Positions 8,044 to 59,812 of a stretch of 64,000 bases of DNA are shown piece after piece. Under the pieces are notes generated by a model that searched no databases, was not told the origin of the DNA, and saw only the letters and a program-made list of their open reading frames with translations. This DNA is from Gemmatimonadaceae bacterium. GTDB lineage: Bacteria; Gemmatimonadota; Gemmatimonadetes; Gemmatimonadales; Gemmatimonadaceae. The position numbers and the translations under genes were made by a program. How positions within the stretch are numbered: the stretch's first letter is position 1; every line of letters starts with the position of its first letter. The stretch covers positions 1-64,000 of the forward strand of contig JBBEBQ010000020.1 in the NCBI GenBank assembly GCA_040882285.1, written 5' to 3'.

Positions 8044-8046
8044 GGC

Positions 8047-8109
8047 GCTATTGGCTATTAGCTATTTGCTCTTAGCTGACCAATAGCCAATAGCCAATAG
8101 CCAATAGCC
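8047..8109. repeat. heptad array, GCTATTG / AATAGCC type, inverted arms (9 units)
   Basis: Exactly nine 7-base units fill the gap between the binding-protein stop and the permease start. The first three to four are GCTATT(G/A/T) and GCTCTTA, the middle is GCTGACC, and the last four are identical AATAGCC copies, so the two arms are complementary and can fold into a hairpin. The last unit directly abuts the ATG at 8110, leaving no room for a Shine-Dalgarno sequence. Confidence 0.9.
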
Positions 8110-9039
8110 ATGCTTTCATTCATCCTGCGACGCCTGCTGCTAGCCATCCCGACGCTGTTCGGAGTGCTGGTCGTCGTGTTCCTCCTGCTGTACGTCGCGC
8201 CGGGAGACCCGGTCCAGGAGATGGTCGGCGAGCGGGCGGACCCGGAGACCGTCGCGCGCCTGCGGGCCGAGCTCCGGCTGGACGACCCGCTGCACAAGCA
8301 GTTCATCCACTACACGGGCGGCGTCCTCCGGGGCGATCTCGGCAGATCGTACATCACGCGCCGACCGATCCTGCAGGACATTCGTGAGCGGTTCCCGAAG
8401 ACACTGCAGCTCGCGGGCGCGGCCATGCTCCTGGCCTCGGTGATCGGGATCACGATCGGAATACTCAGCGCGCGAGTTCCCGGCGGCTGGTTCGACCGCA
8501 TCTCGCTCGGCGTCGCGTATCTGGGGATCTCCTTCCCCGTGTACTGGGTGGGGTTGATTCTGATTCTGGTATTCGCGGTGATGCTGCGCTGGCTCCCACC
8601 ATCGGGCTACGGCGGAATCGAGTATTTGATCCTACCCGCGCTCGCGCTCGGCTCCCGCTCGATCGCCTTCCTCGCGCGCGTGACGCGCTCGGCGATGCTC
8701 GACGTGCTCGGCAGCGATTTCGTGCGCACTGCGCGCGCGAAAGGGCAGCGCGAGCGGTTGGTGATAACGCGGCATGCGCTGCGAAACGCGCTCATCCCGA
8801 TCATCACCGTGCTCGGACTCGACTTCGGCTACTATCTCACGGGGAGCATTCTCACCGAGACGATCTTCAGCTGGCCGGGACTCGGCCGCTACGTGGTGAA
8901 CGCCATCGCCCGCCGCGACCTGCCCGCGATCCAGGGCTCGGTGCTGTTCCTCAGCGTGGTGTTCGTGATGGTGAACCTGATCACCGATCTGGCGTACGCG
9001 AAGGCGGATCCGCGCGTTGCGTACAAGACCGCCAACTAG
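8110..9039 (+). CDS. oligopeptide-type ABC transporter permease (DppB/OppB family)
   Basis: 309 residues with six predicted membrane helices, beginning MLSFILRRLLLAIPTLFGVL, the typical first helix of DppB/OppB proteins. The periplasmic segment 'YVAPGDPVQEM', the glycine-rich middle and the cytoplasmic EAA-type loop 'DFVRTARAKG' near residue 205 are family hallmarks; the C-terminus 'DLAYAKADPRVAYK' also fits. It belongs with the upstream binding protein (6490-8043). No partner DppC-type permease or ATPase follows; the next gene is on the opposite strand. The start is fixed by the N-terminal family match although it has no ribosome binding site. Confidence 0.93.
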   Translation: MLSFILRRLLLAIPTLFGVLVVVFLLLYVAPGDPVQEMVGERADPETVARLRAELRLDDPLHKQFIHYTGGVLRGDLGRSYITRRPILQDIRERFPKTLQLAGAAMLLASVIGITIGILSARVPGGWFDRISLGVAYLGISFPVYWVGLILILVFAVMLRWLPPSGYGGIEYLILPALALGSRSIAFLARVTRSAMLDVLGSDFVRTARAKGQRERLVITRHALRNALIPIITVLGLDFGYYLTGSILTETIFSWPGLGRYVVNAIARRDLPAIQGSVLFLSVVFVMVNLITDLAYAKADPRVAYKTAN

Positions 9040-9158
9040 CGGGCTGCCCGGGTTTCGCTATGCGGTGCAGCGCATGTCGTCGTCAGCGGTGCGCCGACAG
9101 GTAGGGAATCGAGCGCTGTGCACGCCTACTCCCGTGAACAGGGTGAACCGGGACGCGC

Positions 9159-9596
9159 TCACGCGGTCCCCGGCGTCGACCCTGACGATGCAGAAAGCAA
9201 CGTAACGGTCCCTTGGGCCGTGGCGCACAGACTTTCGTGTCCTTGCCGGAGCACAAACACATCGCAGCGACAAACGGCCTGACTCCTCCCCGCGTGAACC
9301 ACTGCCGCACGGGCCACAATCGAATCGCCAACTGCCGGACGCATGTAGTTGATCTTGAACTCCGAGGTCAGCACGCCGGGACCGAGACCGCTACCCCCAG
9401 CGAACGTCAGCGCATTATCGGCGGCGTAGCTGATGACGCCACCGTGTACGAATCCGTGCTGTTGTTTCAGTTCCTCTCGAATCGAAATGCTGATCTCAGC
9501 CCGCCCCTCGGAAAAAGCCAGTAGTTCGGCCCCAAGCAGCACGCTGAAGGGCTGCGACGCGAGAGCGTGCTTGCCGCGAGTGAGCATGTCTTCCAT
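9159..9596 (-). CDS. PaaI-type hotdog-fold thioesterase
   Basis: 145 residues with the PaaI/YbgC-like hotdog signature 'QHGFVHGGVISYAADNA' at about residues 46-62, where the HGG turn and the following acidic residue form the active site, and 'LTSEFKINYMRPA' further on. Such enzymes hydrolyse acyl-CoA thioesters in the cytoplasm, often in aromatic degradation or as housekeeping proofreaders. It starts at ATG 9596, downstream of the integron-like region and on the same strand. I see no attC-like site after its stop, so I treat it as a chromosomal gene rather than a cassette. Confidence 0.85.
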   Translation of the reverse strand: MEDMLTRGKHALASQPFSVLLGAELLAFSEGRAEISISIREELKQQHGFVHGGVISYAADNALTFAGGSGLGPGVLTSEFKINYMRPAVGDSIVARAAVVHAGRSQAVCRCDVFVLRQGHESLCATAQGTVTLLSASSGSTPGTA

Positions 9597-9627
9597 TTTT
9601 TGAATTCCGCAGGCAGCCTACCGAAGA

Positions 9628-9772
9628 TGTAGAATAAGTCCCTCGAGCATTTGCGCGATCGGATTGTTGAAAACTCGACCGCCAGAGCCCCCCAATCGAC
9701 GATCACCACGTCGGGAATGATCGGAGCACCGCCCAGAAAGGCGACCACCGCGTCTCGACGACTTATTCTACA
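9628..9772. repeat. inverted repeat flanking a gene-less 120-bp segment
   Basis: TGTAGAATAAGTC at 9628-9640 and its perfect complement GACTTATTCTACA at 9760-9772; pairing extends to CGAG/CTCG a few bases inside each arm. The right arm overlaps the presumed outer core of the 9768-9859 attC-like site. The enclosed DNA has no convincing gene. It may be the remnant of a further cassette or a mobile scar. Confidence 0.6.
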
Positions 9773-9859
9773 ACGCCACGGTTCAGCTGCAGCGGAATGA
9801 AACAAAGCGCGAAACGCGCACACAATAGATCCGCTGTCTGCTGCAACCGTTTGTTAGCC
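9768..9859 (-). other. attC-like recombination site (cassette 2 end)
   Basis: 92 bp. Read on the minus strand it starts with GGCTAAC (9859-9853), continues with an arm ending CAGCGGA, contains an inner GCGCGAAACGCGC hairpin, and closes with GTTGTAG (9774-9768). The two arms (ACGGTT..CAGCGGA on the plus strand at 9778-9796 and TCCGCTG..AACCGT at 9831-9850) pair except for two single-base bulges (G and A) and one two-base mismatch. Core sites plus extrahelical bases are the structural hallmark of attC. It lies 3' of the 9957-11789 gene, as an attC should. The outer core departs from GTTRRRY. Confidence 0.7.
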
Positions 9860-9956
9860 GGCAGCGTGCTTCCACGATGCCTATACCGTCTCATTGAAGA
9901 CTCAGTCGATCTGGTGGTCATTCGGAATGATCGCGGTGAGGTTGATCAGCCTGTCG

Positions 9957-11789
9957 CTACCGTTTTATTGGTTGGAGCGACACTCGATCCCAATCCACGA
10001 GCTGGAGCGTCGAGGACGAGAAACTGGTCAGGAGCAAGGTTCGCCCGTCCGGCGTCGTCTGGAGCTCGCGCGGGAACGCACCCGCCGAAATTGTTCCCAG
10101 CACGGCGGCGGCGCCAGCCGACATTCGCATTGCATCGACAACGGTCAGATTTTGATCATCAGTCTGCCTGGCGGCAAATCGGTTCGAGTTTGCGACAATG
10201 ATCCTCGCGCCATCGTCCACCACGGCGACGCCGACTGGCGCAGGGCCAACCGGTACCTGGGCGAGAAGCGCGCCCATCCGGTTTTCGCGCAGCTTTCTCG
10301 TATCGAAAGCGAGAAGTGCGTCGCTGTTGCGCGCGGTCACGTACGCCACATCTCCTTTGGGTGAAAGCACAAGTCGCACCGGACTGCATCCTGCGGGCGC
10401 GGCAGCCACGATGGCATTCACCGGATCCGTCTTCGCGCGCTCCACGTCAATGACAAGAACCGCGCCTGGTGGATTGACCGGCTCGGCCGTCGGCCCGGTA
10501 CCTTCCCGGCGGCAAGCCTTCGCCCAGGCGAGCTTCGCGGGGGCAATCTGACTCGTCGTATACAGGTAGCGCTGATCGGCCGAGAAGGTGAGCGCGACCG
10601 GAAAGCTGCCAACGGGAATCTTGCCGACGACCGCCGTCGCCGCAAAGTGGGAGGCCCGCGCCTTGACCAGATCCACCACCGTTATTGTCTGTGCGGCTTC
10701 GTCACTCACGAACAGGAAACCGTCGTCAGAGGTGACATTGAGGTAGAAACGCACGGGCCGGCCGCCGTCGCGCAGCTCGCCGAGAACGGCGTCGGTCCGC
10801 CCCATGATCAGGCGTTGCAGATCCACGAACACGACGCCGTCGCCGGCAGCGGCCATCAGCAGTGAACCATCGCGCGTGAGCGCAATCCCGTACGCAGGGA
10901 CTTCCAGTGGTAGCAGGCGCGCGAGTGACACAACGCCGGTCGACCGGCTGAAGAGCGCGATGGCACCCGGCCAGCCGAGCTTCGTCGACGCGAGCGATGC
11001 CACCAGCCAGCAACCATCCGGCGTCGCCAGCGCCATCACCGGATTGCCGGGCAGTTCGACGCGAGTGATCGGCTCTCGGCTGGGCTCGTTACAGCGGCCG
11101 AAACTGCCGAACGGCAGAGAGCGCTCTGCTCCACCCTGTCGCAGTGCTGCCGCAGGCCGGGTGGTCGCCGGTGTTTCCGCCGCGCGCGTGGCAGTCCAGC
11201 CGAGTGCGGGGATCACGCCGCTTGCGATGCTGCCGTCCGGCAGAACGGCCATCCGCGCCTCGCCGAACCCGGGGAATACGACCGTGGCCGAGTCGGTCGT
11301 CGGCCAGACCACGTTCCAGCTCGTGGTGTCCATCTGTTGGAGCTGTACCACCGGCACCCGCACGGCTTGCGTGGTCGCGCGGGTACTACGGAGAAGCTGC
11401 TCGAGGAGCGCAAAGGATATGAGATACATCGGCATCGCCGGGACACCCGTGACGATTTCGCGCTGCCGTGGCTGTCCGCGCAAAAAGCCGGAAAGGCGAA
11501 CCGTATCTGCCGTGAAGCGCATGACACTGTTCGCCCACCAGCCCCAGTCAAGCGAGGACTCGATCGAAGCGATGCCGCCATCGCGCCGCAGGCGCGCAAC
11601 GTAGTGGAAGCGCTCGCCGCCGGGTCCGAACACGTCCCCCGCAAGAGTTTCGGCCCCACGCTCGAAATGCTCGACCGCGACCGTGTCGGTCCCCCGCACG
11701 ATTACGAAGCCGCCACGCGTTATGACGCCTTGGGCGCGAGCCGTGGCCGGGAGCAGCAGGAACACCAGTGTTGCCAACGCACGGAGCAT
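9957..11789 (-). CDS. exported YncE-like beta-propeller protein (integron cassette gene)
   Basis: 610 residues with a signal peptide (MLRALATLVFLLLPATARAQ). Residues about 20-210 form a domain without a match I recognise; residues about 240-610 contain repeated propeller blades with the pattern 'xVxxxDxxRxxxxxxG' and 'PDGRTLLLTSFSSSTLQLVD', like YncE/lactonase-type seven-bladed propellers (examples: 'TFSADQRYLYTTSQ', 'VLSPKGDVAYVTARNSD'). It probably acts in the periplasm, perhaps as a ligand-binding scaffold. The start codon lies only 8 bases after the core GTTAGCC of the upstream attC-like site and its stop is followed by the second, so it fits as the second gene cassette, though cassette genes are usually far shorter. 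Confidence 0.75.
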   Translation of the reverse strand: MLRALATLVFLLLPATARAQGVITRGGFVIVRGTDTVAVEHFERGAETLAGDVFGPGGERFHYVARLRRDGGIASIESSLDWGWWANSVMRFTADTVRLSGFLRGQPRQREIVTGVPAMPMYLISFALLEQLLRSTRATTQAVRVPVVQLQQMDTTSWNVVWPTTDSATVVFPGFGEARMAVLPDGSIASGVIPALGWTATRAAETPATTRPAAALRQGGAERSLPFGSFGRCNEPSREPITRVELPGNPVMALATPDGCWLVASLASTKLGWPGAIALFSRSTGVVSLARLLPLEVPAYGIALTRDGSLLMAAAGDGVVFVDLQRLIMGRTDAVLGELRDGGRPVRFYLNVTSDDGFLFVSDEAAQTITVVDLVKARASHFAATAVVGKIPVGSFPVALTFSADQRYLYTTSQIAPAKLAWAKACRREGTGPTAEPVNPPGAVLVIDVERAKTDPVNAIVAAAPAGCSPVRLVLSPKGDVAYVTARNSDALLAFDTRKLRENRMGALLAQVPVGPAPVGVAVVDDGARIIVANSNRFAARQTDDQNLTVVDAMRMSAGAAAVLGTISAGAFPRELQTTPDGRTLLLTSFSSSTLQLVDWDRVSLQPIKR

Positions 11790-11797
11790 GTTCGTCC

Positions 11798-11908
11798 GGC
11801 TAACGCGCCGGAGTTAACCTGCCGGCGTTTCCAATAAAATGCGGCTCGCGAGCTCTGCGAGCGAGCCGCCACCGCAGAGCGCCGGTCAGGTTCAACTCCT
11901 CGTTAGGC
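11798..11908 (-). other. attC-like recombination site (cassette 1 end)
   Basis: 111 bp. On the minus strand it opens with the perfect core GCCTAAC (11908-11902) and ends with GTTAGCC (11804-11798). The long arms, GGAGTT-AACCTG-CCGGCG on the left of the plus strand and their complement on the right, pair over about 18 bases with two single-base bulges (G and A), while the centre holds a variable GCGGCTCGC/GCGAGCCGC hairpin. This combination (inverted cores, extrahelical bases, variable terminal structure) is what defines attC sites. It sits 80 bp after the stop of the 11988-13811 gene and 8 bp before the next start. Confidence 0.85.
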
Positions 11909-11987
11909 CGCGCCCAAGATCGTGCAAGTCGCCGAGGCGGATCTGACCGCTATCGAGAAACACGAGAGGGCCTTCGTGCCGCCGCCG

Positions 11988-13811
11988 TCATTCGCGCGGA
12001 GGCTGGAGTCCGGAGTCTCCTGGCATCTTCAGAATCCATATCTCCCCACGGTCCCTGCCGGATGCAAACGCGAGTCGTCTTCCATTGGGATGTATGCGCA
12101 CGTGGTTCTCGGCGCAGCAATCGTACAGCAGGCGGACCGGTTCGCCTCCGCGCACGCTGATGGACCAGAGGCTCGCCTGCTCGCCGCTCTCGATCTTGAA
12201 CACGAGCCCGGAGCCGTCGGGCATCCACGTTACAGGCGGTCCAATTCGGCCGCGATCGGGCCGAAAGACCGTGCGCGAGCTTCCGCTGCCCGTCGTGGAA
12301 ATAACGCGCAGCTCGACGTGACCCGAGGTGTCGTCGCGCGCGAGAAATGCCAGTTGCGTCCCATCTGGTGAAACAGACAGAGACGCTGTGACTGCTCTTG
12401 CTGTGCCGATCACGCGCATGACTCCAGTCTCCGCATCGGCAGCCACGAGGTTGTTCCCACGACCGCGGCCCTGCGGTCGCGCAACCATGTAGAGACTGCG
12501 GCCGTCCGGTCCCACATCGAACCACTTGATGGCGCTGCGGCCGACTGACGGCGGCGTCATCACGCGCCGGTGACTTCCGTCGCGAAGATCCAGCGCGAAG
12601 ATGCCGTCCAGGCCGCGTTCATACGCGAAGAGAATGATTCGGTCCGCCGTCGCCCACCGGAAGGTTCCATTGCTGGTGTGGAGCGCGGGGGTGAGTACAA
12701 TAGTCCGAACAATCTCTCCGGTCGTCGAAGCGATTTGCAGCCTCTCGACCGGATCTGGAAGGGGATCGTGGGTGACAAACGCCAAGCGGGCGCCATCGGG
12801 TGACCAGTCGGCTGCAAAGCTTCTGCGCCACGGCGGCTCGTGGACCGCCCGTGGCATTCGCACGTTATCTCCGCCAGCGGGGTCCACTTCTGCGGCGTGT
12901 ACTCGTGTGGTCTCGGTCATAACGCCATACGCGTACCCGTCGCGCGTAAAACCGAGAGGGACGAGCGCAGGAACGTTGGCGTGGATGAGCTCTGGTTCGC
13001 CTATCGGCCGGCCCGCCCGCACCCGAAGCCGCCAAATTGATGGCGTGCCGTTGCGGTCGCTGTAGAAGAGAATCCCATCTCCGCCGGGGAGCCAACCGAG
13101 AAGTCGATCGGAGCCTGGCCCAGACACGAGCACTGTTTCCGCGCCTCCCGCTGAGGGCACGACTAAGATGTCGCGGGTTGACGCGGTCGGGTTCGGCGGA
13201 TAGTCGTATGCGACGTACCGTCCGTCCGGTGACAAATCGGCGTCCGGATATGCCTGGTCATGTCCCCCGCCAGGCGTCTGCCAGCCAAGAGCTTTGACCG
13301 TCCGTATCGGGCCGCCCCCTGCGGGAACGAGACCGAGCTGCCAGGTCTGGTCCTTTCCCTGCACGGCGACTAGGATCTCGTCGCTCGAAGCGGACCAGTC
13401 GACGGGATCGATGTAGTAGCGATCAGGATCGGCAGGAACCACAGTTCGGAAGCGACCGCTGACGGTACTCATGACCCGCAACTCGTGAGCATTCACCGAA
13501 TCGATATACCACGCGACCGCAATGCGCCGAGCGTCAGGTGAAAAGGCAGACGTCCACGCGTACCCGCCGGTGTAGCCCTGGCCGGTGAGATCGCGGGCCT
13601 CTCCCGAGCGGAGATCGACGAGCTGGAGGTCGCCGCTTGCCCAGTTGACCTGCGACAGGTAACGGCCGTCGGGTGAAATGTCGCCGCTGATGAAGTCCGG
13701 GCTGCCCGACCAAGCCCGTGTTACCAGAGCGTCCGCCGGATGCTGTATGTTGACGGCGCATGCCGCGGATGCTGCGAGGAGAAGACAACTGCCTAGTACA
13801 TTGATTCTCAT
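11988..13811 (-). CDS. TolB-like PD40/WD40 beta-propeller lipoprotein (integron cassette gene)
   Basis: 607 residues from ATG 13811, preceded by GGAGGCGGG. The N-terminus MRINVLGSCLLLAASAAC gives a lipoprotein signal with Cys18. The body is a series of PD40 blades: 'DISPDGRYLSQVNW', 'AFSPDARRIAVAWY', 'DLSPDGRYVAYDY', 'DWSPDGARLAFVTH', 'SVSPDGTQLAFLAR', 'RIHPNGRRLAFASG', as in TolB and related periplasmic propellers. It is a lipid-anchored propeller of unknown partner. It begins 35 bp after a GTTAGGC core and ends 80 bp before an attC-like site, so it is best read as the first integron cassette (about 2.05 kb), with its own ribosome binding site. Confidence 0.8.
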   Translation of the reverse strand: MRINVLGSCLLLAASAACAVNIQHPADALVTRAWSGSPDFISGDISPDGRYLSQVNWASGDLQLVDLRSGEARDLTGQGYTGGYAWTSAFSPDARRIAVAWYIDSVNAHELRVMSTVSGRFRTVVPADPDRYYIDPVDWSASSDEILVAVQGKDQTWQLGLVPAGGGPIRTVKALGWQTPGGGHDQAYPDADLSPDGRYVAYDYPPNPTASTRDILVVPSAGGAETVLVSGPGSDRLLGWLPGGDGILFYSDRNGTPSIWRLRVRAGRPIGEPELIHANVPALVPLGFTRDGYAYGVMTETTRVHAAEVDPAGGDNVRMPRAVHEPPWRRSFAADWSPDGARLAFVTHDPLPDPVERLQIASTTGEIVRTIVLTPALHTSNGTFRWATADRIILFAYERGLDGIFALDLRDGSHRRVMTPPSVGRSAIKWFDVGPDGRSLYMVARPQGRGRGNNLVAADAETGVMRVIGTARAVTASLSVSPDGTQLAFLARDDTSGHVELRVISTTGSGSSRTVFRPDRGRIGPPVTWMPDGSGLVFKIESGEQASLWSISVRGGEPVRLLYDCCAENHVRIHPNGRRLAFASGRDRGEIWILKMPGDSGLQPPRE

Positions 13812-13845
13812 CCCGCCTCCATTGCGCCGGCGTGCGCTGCGTCGA

Positions 13846-13922
13846 CGGCCTAACTATCTATTCACCTGCACAGGATACTACCCCTTATTCTGGCAACGCA
13901 GCAAGCATCGCCGCAATATCTG
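13846..13922 (-). other. attI-like site at the 3' side of the integrase remnant
   Basis: On the minus strand the 70 bases after the integrase stop end in the perfect core GTTAGGC (13852-13846). No inverted partner is found between the stop and this core, so it is not an attC but fits the simple, non-palindromic attI type. It marks the junction from which the first cassette begins. Assignment depends on the neighbouring integrase remnant and attC-like sites. Confidence 0.5.
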
Positions 13923-14531
13923 CTATTCGCCACCCAGCCGGTCCGCCGGACTCCGGACGCCTAACCGCCCGCGGTTCAGGACGTGGGTGTAAATCATCGT
14001 CGTACTGACGTCCGTGTGCCCCAGCAGTTCCTGCAGCGTCCGAATATCGTACCCGTCTTCCAGTAGGTGAGTCGCGAATGAGAGCCGCAGCGTGTGGCAC
14101 GTCGCCCGCTTCGCCAGCCCGGCCTCCCGAACCGCGTGCTGCATCGCACGCTGCACCGCGGTCTCATGCACGTGATGCCGGCGCTCTTGCCCGCTGGCGG
14201 CATCCCGATGGCGACGCGAGGCGGGAAACACCCACTGCCACGCCAACTCCGTAGCCCAAGCGGGCGCCTTGCGGTCCAGCGCCTCCGGCAACGCGACATG
14301 TCCCGCCCCGTCGCTCAGGTCGCGCGCGTGCAACGCACGCACGCGCACCAGGTGCTTCTCCAGTGCCGGGCGGGCGATATCGGGTAGCATGGTGACGCGG
14401 TCTTTTCCGCCCTTGCCGCGTCGCACACGGATTTCTCCGCGCGCGAAGTCGAGGTCCTTCACACGTAACGTCAGGCACTCCAGCAAGCGCAGCCCCGCCC
14501 ATACAGCAGCAGGGCAATCAGGCACGCGGTT
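13923..14531 (-). pseudogene. intI: integron integrase (IntI-type tyrosine recombinase), 5'-truncated and frameshifted
   Basis: The catalytic half of an integron integrase is readable on the minus strand: box I '[17 protein letters not shown]', then '[14 protein letters not shown]', the IntI-specific insert '[28 protein letters not shown]', box II '[13 protein letters not shown]', '[17 protein letters not shown]' with the nucleophilic tyrosine, and the C-terminal 'SPADRL'. All R-H-R-H-Y residues are kept. Upstream, '[11 protein letters not shown]' is readable in another frame and joins box I only if one base is restored at about 14490-14500 (TATGGGCGGGGC for the expected TAT GGG GCG GGG). The gene then stops abruptly at the stop codon of the oxidoreductase gene (14532), so the N-terminal core-binding domain is missing. 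An intact C-terminal ORF of 200 codons remains but activity is unlikely. Confidence 0.82.
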
Positions 14532-59701: not shown

Positions 59702-59730
59702 TGTAGAGCAGCACGACATTTCGAAAGCCC

Positions 59731-59812
59731 GTGGCGATTTCAGGCAAATTGCGGCCACGTTAAACAACCGCTAAAGCGCCACGCCCGGCGCACTTAGCGC
59801 CCGGGCTTTTTT
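59731..59812 (+). promoter_or_regulatory. putative SAM-II/SAM-V-like riboswitch with terminator in the metH leader
   Basis: A P1-like stem GTGGC/GCCAC (59731-59735, 59754-59758) encloses GATTTCAGGCAAATTGCG; after it comes GTTAAA (59759-59764) and GCTAAA (59770-59775). SAM-II aptamers show GAUUUAA in the P1 loop and then GAUAAA and GCUAAA after P1, in the same order. Possible pseudoknot pairs are GGC/GCC and TTG/CAA. Then an intrinsic terminator: GCCCGGCGC/GCGCCCGGGC (59783-59791, 59797-59806) followed by six Ts. No + strand gene ends nearby, so this terminator controls metH itself. The GCGCC part of the aptamer tail could also pair with GGCGC as an antiterminator. Confidence 0.4.

Follow-up and report, generated by a model that had tools for sequence, protein, structure and literature searches.

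The integrons of Treponema show an atypical arrangement in which the integrase gene intI is transcribed toward the attachment site attI, and in T. phagedenis an integron remnant lacking intI has been described (PMC3607928). Integrons of the Gemmatimonadota are listed in PMC8618304, and IntegronFinder 2.0 reports a large one on the 1.1-Mb replicon of Gemmatirosa (PMC9024848), which is the array L094 used here. Clusters of attC sites without an integrase are known as CALIN (PMC9024848). We analysed a 64,000-nucleotide stretch of DNA from a Gemmatimonadaceae bacterium (contig JBBEBQ010000020.1), hereafter called the window, in which a segment located between the convergent genes oppB and a reductase gene carries a truncated intI, attI and two gene cassettes, each with its attC. 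A model reading the letters alone (the sequence-only reading) had proposed here a once active cassette platform, now a decayed chromosomal integron, and the parts expected of it are indeed present, with the integrase broken. We are highly confident in reading this segment as a sedentary chromosomal integron of reverse orientation, in a Gemmatimonadaceae bacterium, with an inactivated integrase.

The locus resembles the chromosomal integrons of Treponema in that the loss of the integrase, with cassettes left behind, has been published for T. phagedenis. It differs from them by its phylum, by a separate IntI clade and by the conservation of a C-terminal intI remnant and of attI. The integron of Gemmatirosa kalamazoonensis (G146) belongs to the same family, the relationship that places the genome of the window in Gemmatimonadaceae, and shares the reverse orientation and closely similar attC sites, but its integrase is intact and it contains about 20 or more attC sites, against two in the window. 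As in CALIN, attC cassettes are found without a working integrase; in contrast to CALIN, defined by at least two attC sites with no intI nearby, the two attC sites of the window are accompanied by an adjoining intI remnant and attI, an assignment made without IntegronFinder. The class 1 integron of plasmid pEho7-3 (L264) is also made of IntI, attI and attC cassettes, but its intI1 is divergent from its cassettes, unlike the intI of the window, and the two IntI proteins are about 55% identical.

The intI remnant corresponds to residues 156-343 of a 346-residue relative. The first ~155 residues are gone and a frameshift is present near position 14500: the full-length open integrase gene of a functional integron is missing. 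The remnant matches the TIGR02249 profile at positions 128-315 with 275.9 bits, above the cut-off of 265, while the XerC and XerD models remain far under their own cut-offs. It also matches Vibrio IntI4 (2a3v) with an E value of 4.7e-54 over a region spanning the integron-specific insert. This confirms that the fragment is, as identified earlier, an integron-type recombinase of the tyrosine family carrying the IntI-specific insert. Homology to intI begins at about 14521. A short microhomology marks the place where the remnant meets the reductase stop codon, and the 15 intervening bases resemble the flank of the sister genome G184. On the other side, nucleotide homology to the intI loci of three other genomes extends through the end of intI and about 70 bases beyond, and stops at GTTAG/GC (13854-13848). 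Judged from the alignment of these four loci, this end corresponds to the expected attI crossover, and cassette 1 is thus delimited as 13853-11804.

The two attC sites are located exactly where attC-like sites had been placed by the sequence-only reading, at 9768-9859 and 11798-11908. A scan of the 64 kb for the order R''-spacer-L''-arm-arm-L'-spacer-R' returned these two sites only, with scores of 12.2 and 11.2; in 100 shuffled windows, three matches with a score of at least 7 were obtained in all, the highest being 10.25. A looser scan for arm complementarity was too unspecific, shuffles scoring equally high, and was dropped in favour of this motif-and-stem scan. Folded as single-stranded DNA, both strands of each site far surpass their dinucleotide shuffles (z of -3.5 to -4.1; 0 of 200 shuffles equal). 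Both sites display the R'', L'', L' and R' boxes, paired arms and extrahelical bases; the G and A bulges described earlier were found as an unpaired G and an unpaired A in the 5' arm of each fold. The two motif pairs named in the same reading are also present, but had been attributed to the sites in the wrong order: GCCTAAC/GTTAGCC is carried by 11798-11908 and GGCTAAC/GTTGTAG by 9768-9859.

A covariance model, R1, was built from 32 aligned attC sites of relatives, the window sites being left out. The stem of this alignment covaries strongly (93.5% of cells paired, covariation score of 0.403), compared with scores of 0.131 for shuffled controls and at most 0.076 when slid. R1 matches both window sites on the - strand, with 63.0 bits (E 1.2e-13) at 11798-11908 and 47.0 bits (E 1.3e-9) at 9768-9859. 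The only other matches in the window are the reverse strand of 11798-11908 (20.7 bits) and one at E 0.69. In the clinical class 1 integron of pEho7-3, R1 detects the attC of the blaVIM-1 cassette with 41.8 bits; the attC sites of the other cassettes there were not found by R1. On nine loci of relatives around oppB or the reductase gene, taken as a negative control, it yields a single match (E 0.5). Rfam at its gathering thresholds gives no match at the integron locus. The covariance and folding checks that had been proposed at the outset were thus both positive and, from sequence and predicted fold, we consider the two sites to be genuine attC sites.

In a circular cassette, R'' pairs with that cassette's own start rather than with the R' adjacent to it in the array. 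In two long arrays of relatives, R'' is perfectly complementary to its own cassette start in 28 of 32 cases, and to the in situ R' in only 8 of 32. Both cassettes of the window, which are bounded by core sites, show 7/7 complementarity between R'' and their own start, against 6/7 and 3/7 with R' in situ. The mismatches between R'' and R' in the motif pairs above are thus expected, because each R'' belongs with its own cassette start. This complementarity is the strongest sign that two genuine cassettes were captured. The intI remnant, both cassettes and both attC sites all lie on the - strand in the order intI-attI-cassettes, with attI 3' of intI, so that intI is co-directional with the cassettes as in the reverse-oriented, Treponema type. 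The same orientation was observed in every Gemmatimonadota integron examined where attC sites were placed. Two attC calls on the opposite strand remain, one in L099, which R1 puts on the expected strand, and one in a Treponema locus. The platform layout had been correctly recognised from the letters as to intI, cassettes and attC sites, while attI, the complementarity of each R'' to its own cassette start and the insertion boundaries had been overlooked.

Features of the integron locus and of the surrounding insertion (window coordinates)
Feature	Position	Strand	Evidence
Whole insertion between convergent genes oppB and reductase	9040..14531		near-adjacent stop codons in relatives
Hotdog thioesterase gene inside the insertion	9159..9596	-	PF03061, TIGR00369
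145-bp element, 13-bp terminal inverted repeats TGTAGAATAAGTC, abutting attC of cassette 2	9628..9772		copy in G033
attC of cassette 2, R' box GTTGTAG off consensus	9768..9859	-	covariance model, fold, motif-and-stem scan
Cassette 2, 2030 bp	9774..11803	-	attC cores; R'' vs cassette start 7/7
Cassette 2 gene, 610-aa exported protein, YncE/lactonase-like beta-propeller	9957..11789	-	PF10282, TIGR03866, surface-layer propeller 1l0q
attC of cassette 1	11798..11908	-	covariance model, fold, motif-and-stem scan
Cassette 1, 2050 bp	11804..13853	-	attI and attC cores; R'' vs cassette start 7/7
Cassette 1 gene, 607-aa lipoprotein-like protein, TolB/PD40 beta-propeller repeats	11988..13811	-	PF07676, TIGR02800, TolB structures
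attI, core G/TTAGGC at 13854-13848, 3' side of intI	13848..13875	-	end of nucleotide homology with three other intI loci
intI remnant, reduced to the C-terminal catalytic part	13923..14525	-	TIGR02249, alignment
Probable deletion junction, native reductase flank / intI, short microhomology	14517..14531	-	likeness to G184 flank

The gene order oppA-oppB / reductase-aroB is kept in relatives. The stop codons of oppB and the reductase gene are separated by 5 bp in G328, 15 bp in G033 and about 150 bp in G364, and some other relatives carry unrelated genes at this spot. Since these stops nearly adjoin or enclose unrelated genes, the spot is variable and 9040-14531 has been inserted into it. The contents of the spot vary (L071, L074, L075, L077, L156), G164 having an AAA-type ATPase there and G184 a large exported protein following oppB. 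The comparison with relatives that had been called for thus showed the insert to be absent from three of them, and no genes kept there without attC sites.

The IntI of the window is 94% identical to a copy in G364, which belongs to another genus, whereas the oppB, oppA and reductase of G364 are 85%, 73% and 73% identical to those of the window. Horizontal transfer of an intI-attI module would be the simplest reading. In a tree, the window IntI groups with two damaged G364 copies (support 99/82). These data bear on the most resilient alternative, in which the integron remnant arrived already broken on horizontally moved DNA and was never active here. It is favoured by an IntI identity exceeding that of the vertical genes, by the closest intI copies, those of G364, being themselves frameshifted or truncated, and by the lack of any intermediate stage seen in the genus. 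However, the breakpoint in the window differs from those of both G364 copies, and the truncation adjoins the native reductase flank, which suggests a local deletion. We regard such an origin as rather unlikely.

The genome (2.89 Mb, 27 contigs, 96.6% complete) contains three further intI places (C14, C5 and C8; L080, L081 and L082), and further attC sites on contigs C7, C8, C14 and C19. No intact integrase was found in these 27 contigs. Two of the three further intI genes are followed by a single cassette with attC (nitrilase-like and SDR-like), and attC clusters without intI also occur, the loci on C7 and C19 being L159-L162. The three other IntI copies of the genome group with the two remaining copies of G364 in a second clade (100/99). 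The platform would not be dead if an intact IntI encoded elsewhere in the genome worked on its cassettes in trans. The presence of three other intI places and of attC sites on several contigs, together with an attI and two attC sites that look usable, would accommodate this scenario, but it is improbable as every intI place found is truncated or interrupted. That the hairpins represent chance or terminator-like inverted repeats downstream of two unrelated genes, and the recombinase fragment a coincidental phage or Xer relic, is hardly credible. Short stems within both attC sites are picked up by a simple scan for terminators, but no more than in shuffles (5 vs a mean of 4.0), and this idea is contradicted by the covariance-model E values of 1e-9 and 1e-13, by the exact cassette-start complementarity and the attI boundary, and by an integron-specific integrase match over its cut-off.

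According to the reading that we prefer, a sedentary integron with an inactivated integrase, IntI would at an active stage have recombined circular cassettes into attI, just 3' of intI, via folded single-stranded attC hairpins. At least two cassettes would have been captured, cassette 2 probably earlier than cassette 1. A later deletion may have removed the 5' half of intI and joined the gene to the reductase flank; the frameshift is present as well. Left to itself, the platform would be unable to take up or rearrange cassettes, and the two genes for exported beta-propellers that it carries would now behave as ordinary chromosomal genes. As the boxes of the attC sites, distal R' excepted, do not clearly depart from consensus, an integrase supplied in trans might still mobilise the cassettes. 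Some observations weigh against this reading. Only two cassettes remain, and a longer past array finds no support. In the distal attC, R' (GTTGTAG) is off consensus, the only box for which this is clear. Finally, the assembly is incomplete, and an intact integrase could be hidden in one of its gaps; assemblies are often broken by repeats close to intI.

Both cassette reading frames are open although the integrase is broken, and the cargo may still be under selection. The GC content at third codon positions is 0.69 and 0.75 in the cassette genes, 0.86-0.92 in most flanking genes and 0.73 in aroB. Export signals, lipoprotein-like for cassette 1 and a signal-like N-terminus for cassette 2, were judged by eye. 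Relatives of the cassette proteins share 31-37% identity (cassette 1) and 45-52% identity (cassette 2). One relative of the cassette 2 protein (G238, L167) is encoded about 1.2 kb downstream of an attC; that it is cassette-borne is unsupported, as no attC follows the gene. A scan for consensus promoters found nothing, which is weak evidence in Gemmatimonadota.

Other elements share the insertion or the window. The sole close copy found of the 145-bp element is 93% identical and located beside an attC in G033, of another genus (L158, 3271-3418); in both genomes a similar GCCTAAC-like box is present at the other end. We rejected a many-copy transposable element, with one full copy each in only 2 of 179 family genomes, and its exact terminal repeats gave no match in the genome's contigs. 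No attC belonging to the thioesterase gene was found, and this gene is absent from three relatives of the genus (E 1e-15). Tandem and inverted CCAATAGC/GCTATTGG copies occur at 8045-8110, between oppA and oppB. A SAM_alpha riboswitch (RF00521), named for alphaproteobacteria but here outside that group, was detected at 59721-59794 (+) with 38 bits, barely above the gathering score of 36.

When 394 genomes of the same class were searched with the intI fragment, 158 contained matches at E 1e-20, though the weakest matches may represent tyrosine recombinases of another kind. The intI loci fetched from relatives hold attC arrays, some of them long. L099 (G232) and L094 (G146), both from Gemmatimonadaceae, each contain about 20 or more attC sites and an intact reverse-oriented integrase. 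All four intI copies of the genome studied here have a lost or broken 5' part and a conserved 3' end. A rough count by eye over the class gave about 26 remnants without the 5' part and about 11 without the 3' part, of which at least 3 lie at contig edges; as detection favours the conserved C-terminus, this count is only suggestive. From these four copies and this count, we put forward as a speculative and rather doubtful idea that in reverse-oriented integrons decay may begin at the 5' end of intI, because the cassette promoter would lie in its 3' end and attI. If this were true, dead integrase genes would become fixed promoters for captured exported proteins.

Integrons and integron remnants of the Gemmatimonadota have already been published, and this locus is a further example, to which the census of orientations and the damaged integrases add modestly. 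With empty sites in relatives, a dead integrase and intact cassettes, it clearly illustrates that integrons are gained and lost in this phylum, and raises the questions of how genes brought in by cassettes turn into fixed chromosomal ones and whether the loss of intI is polar.
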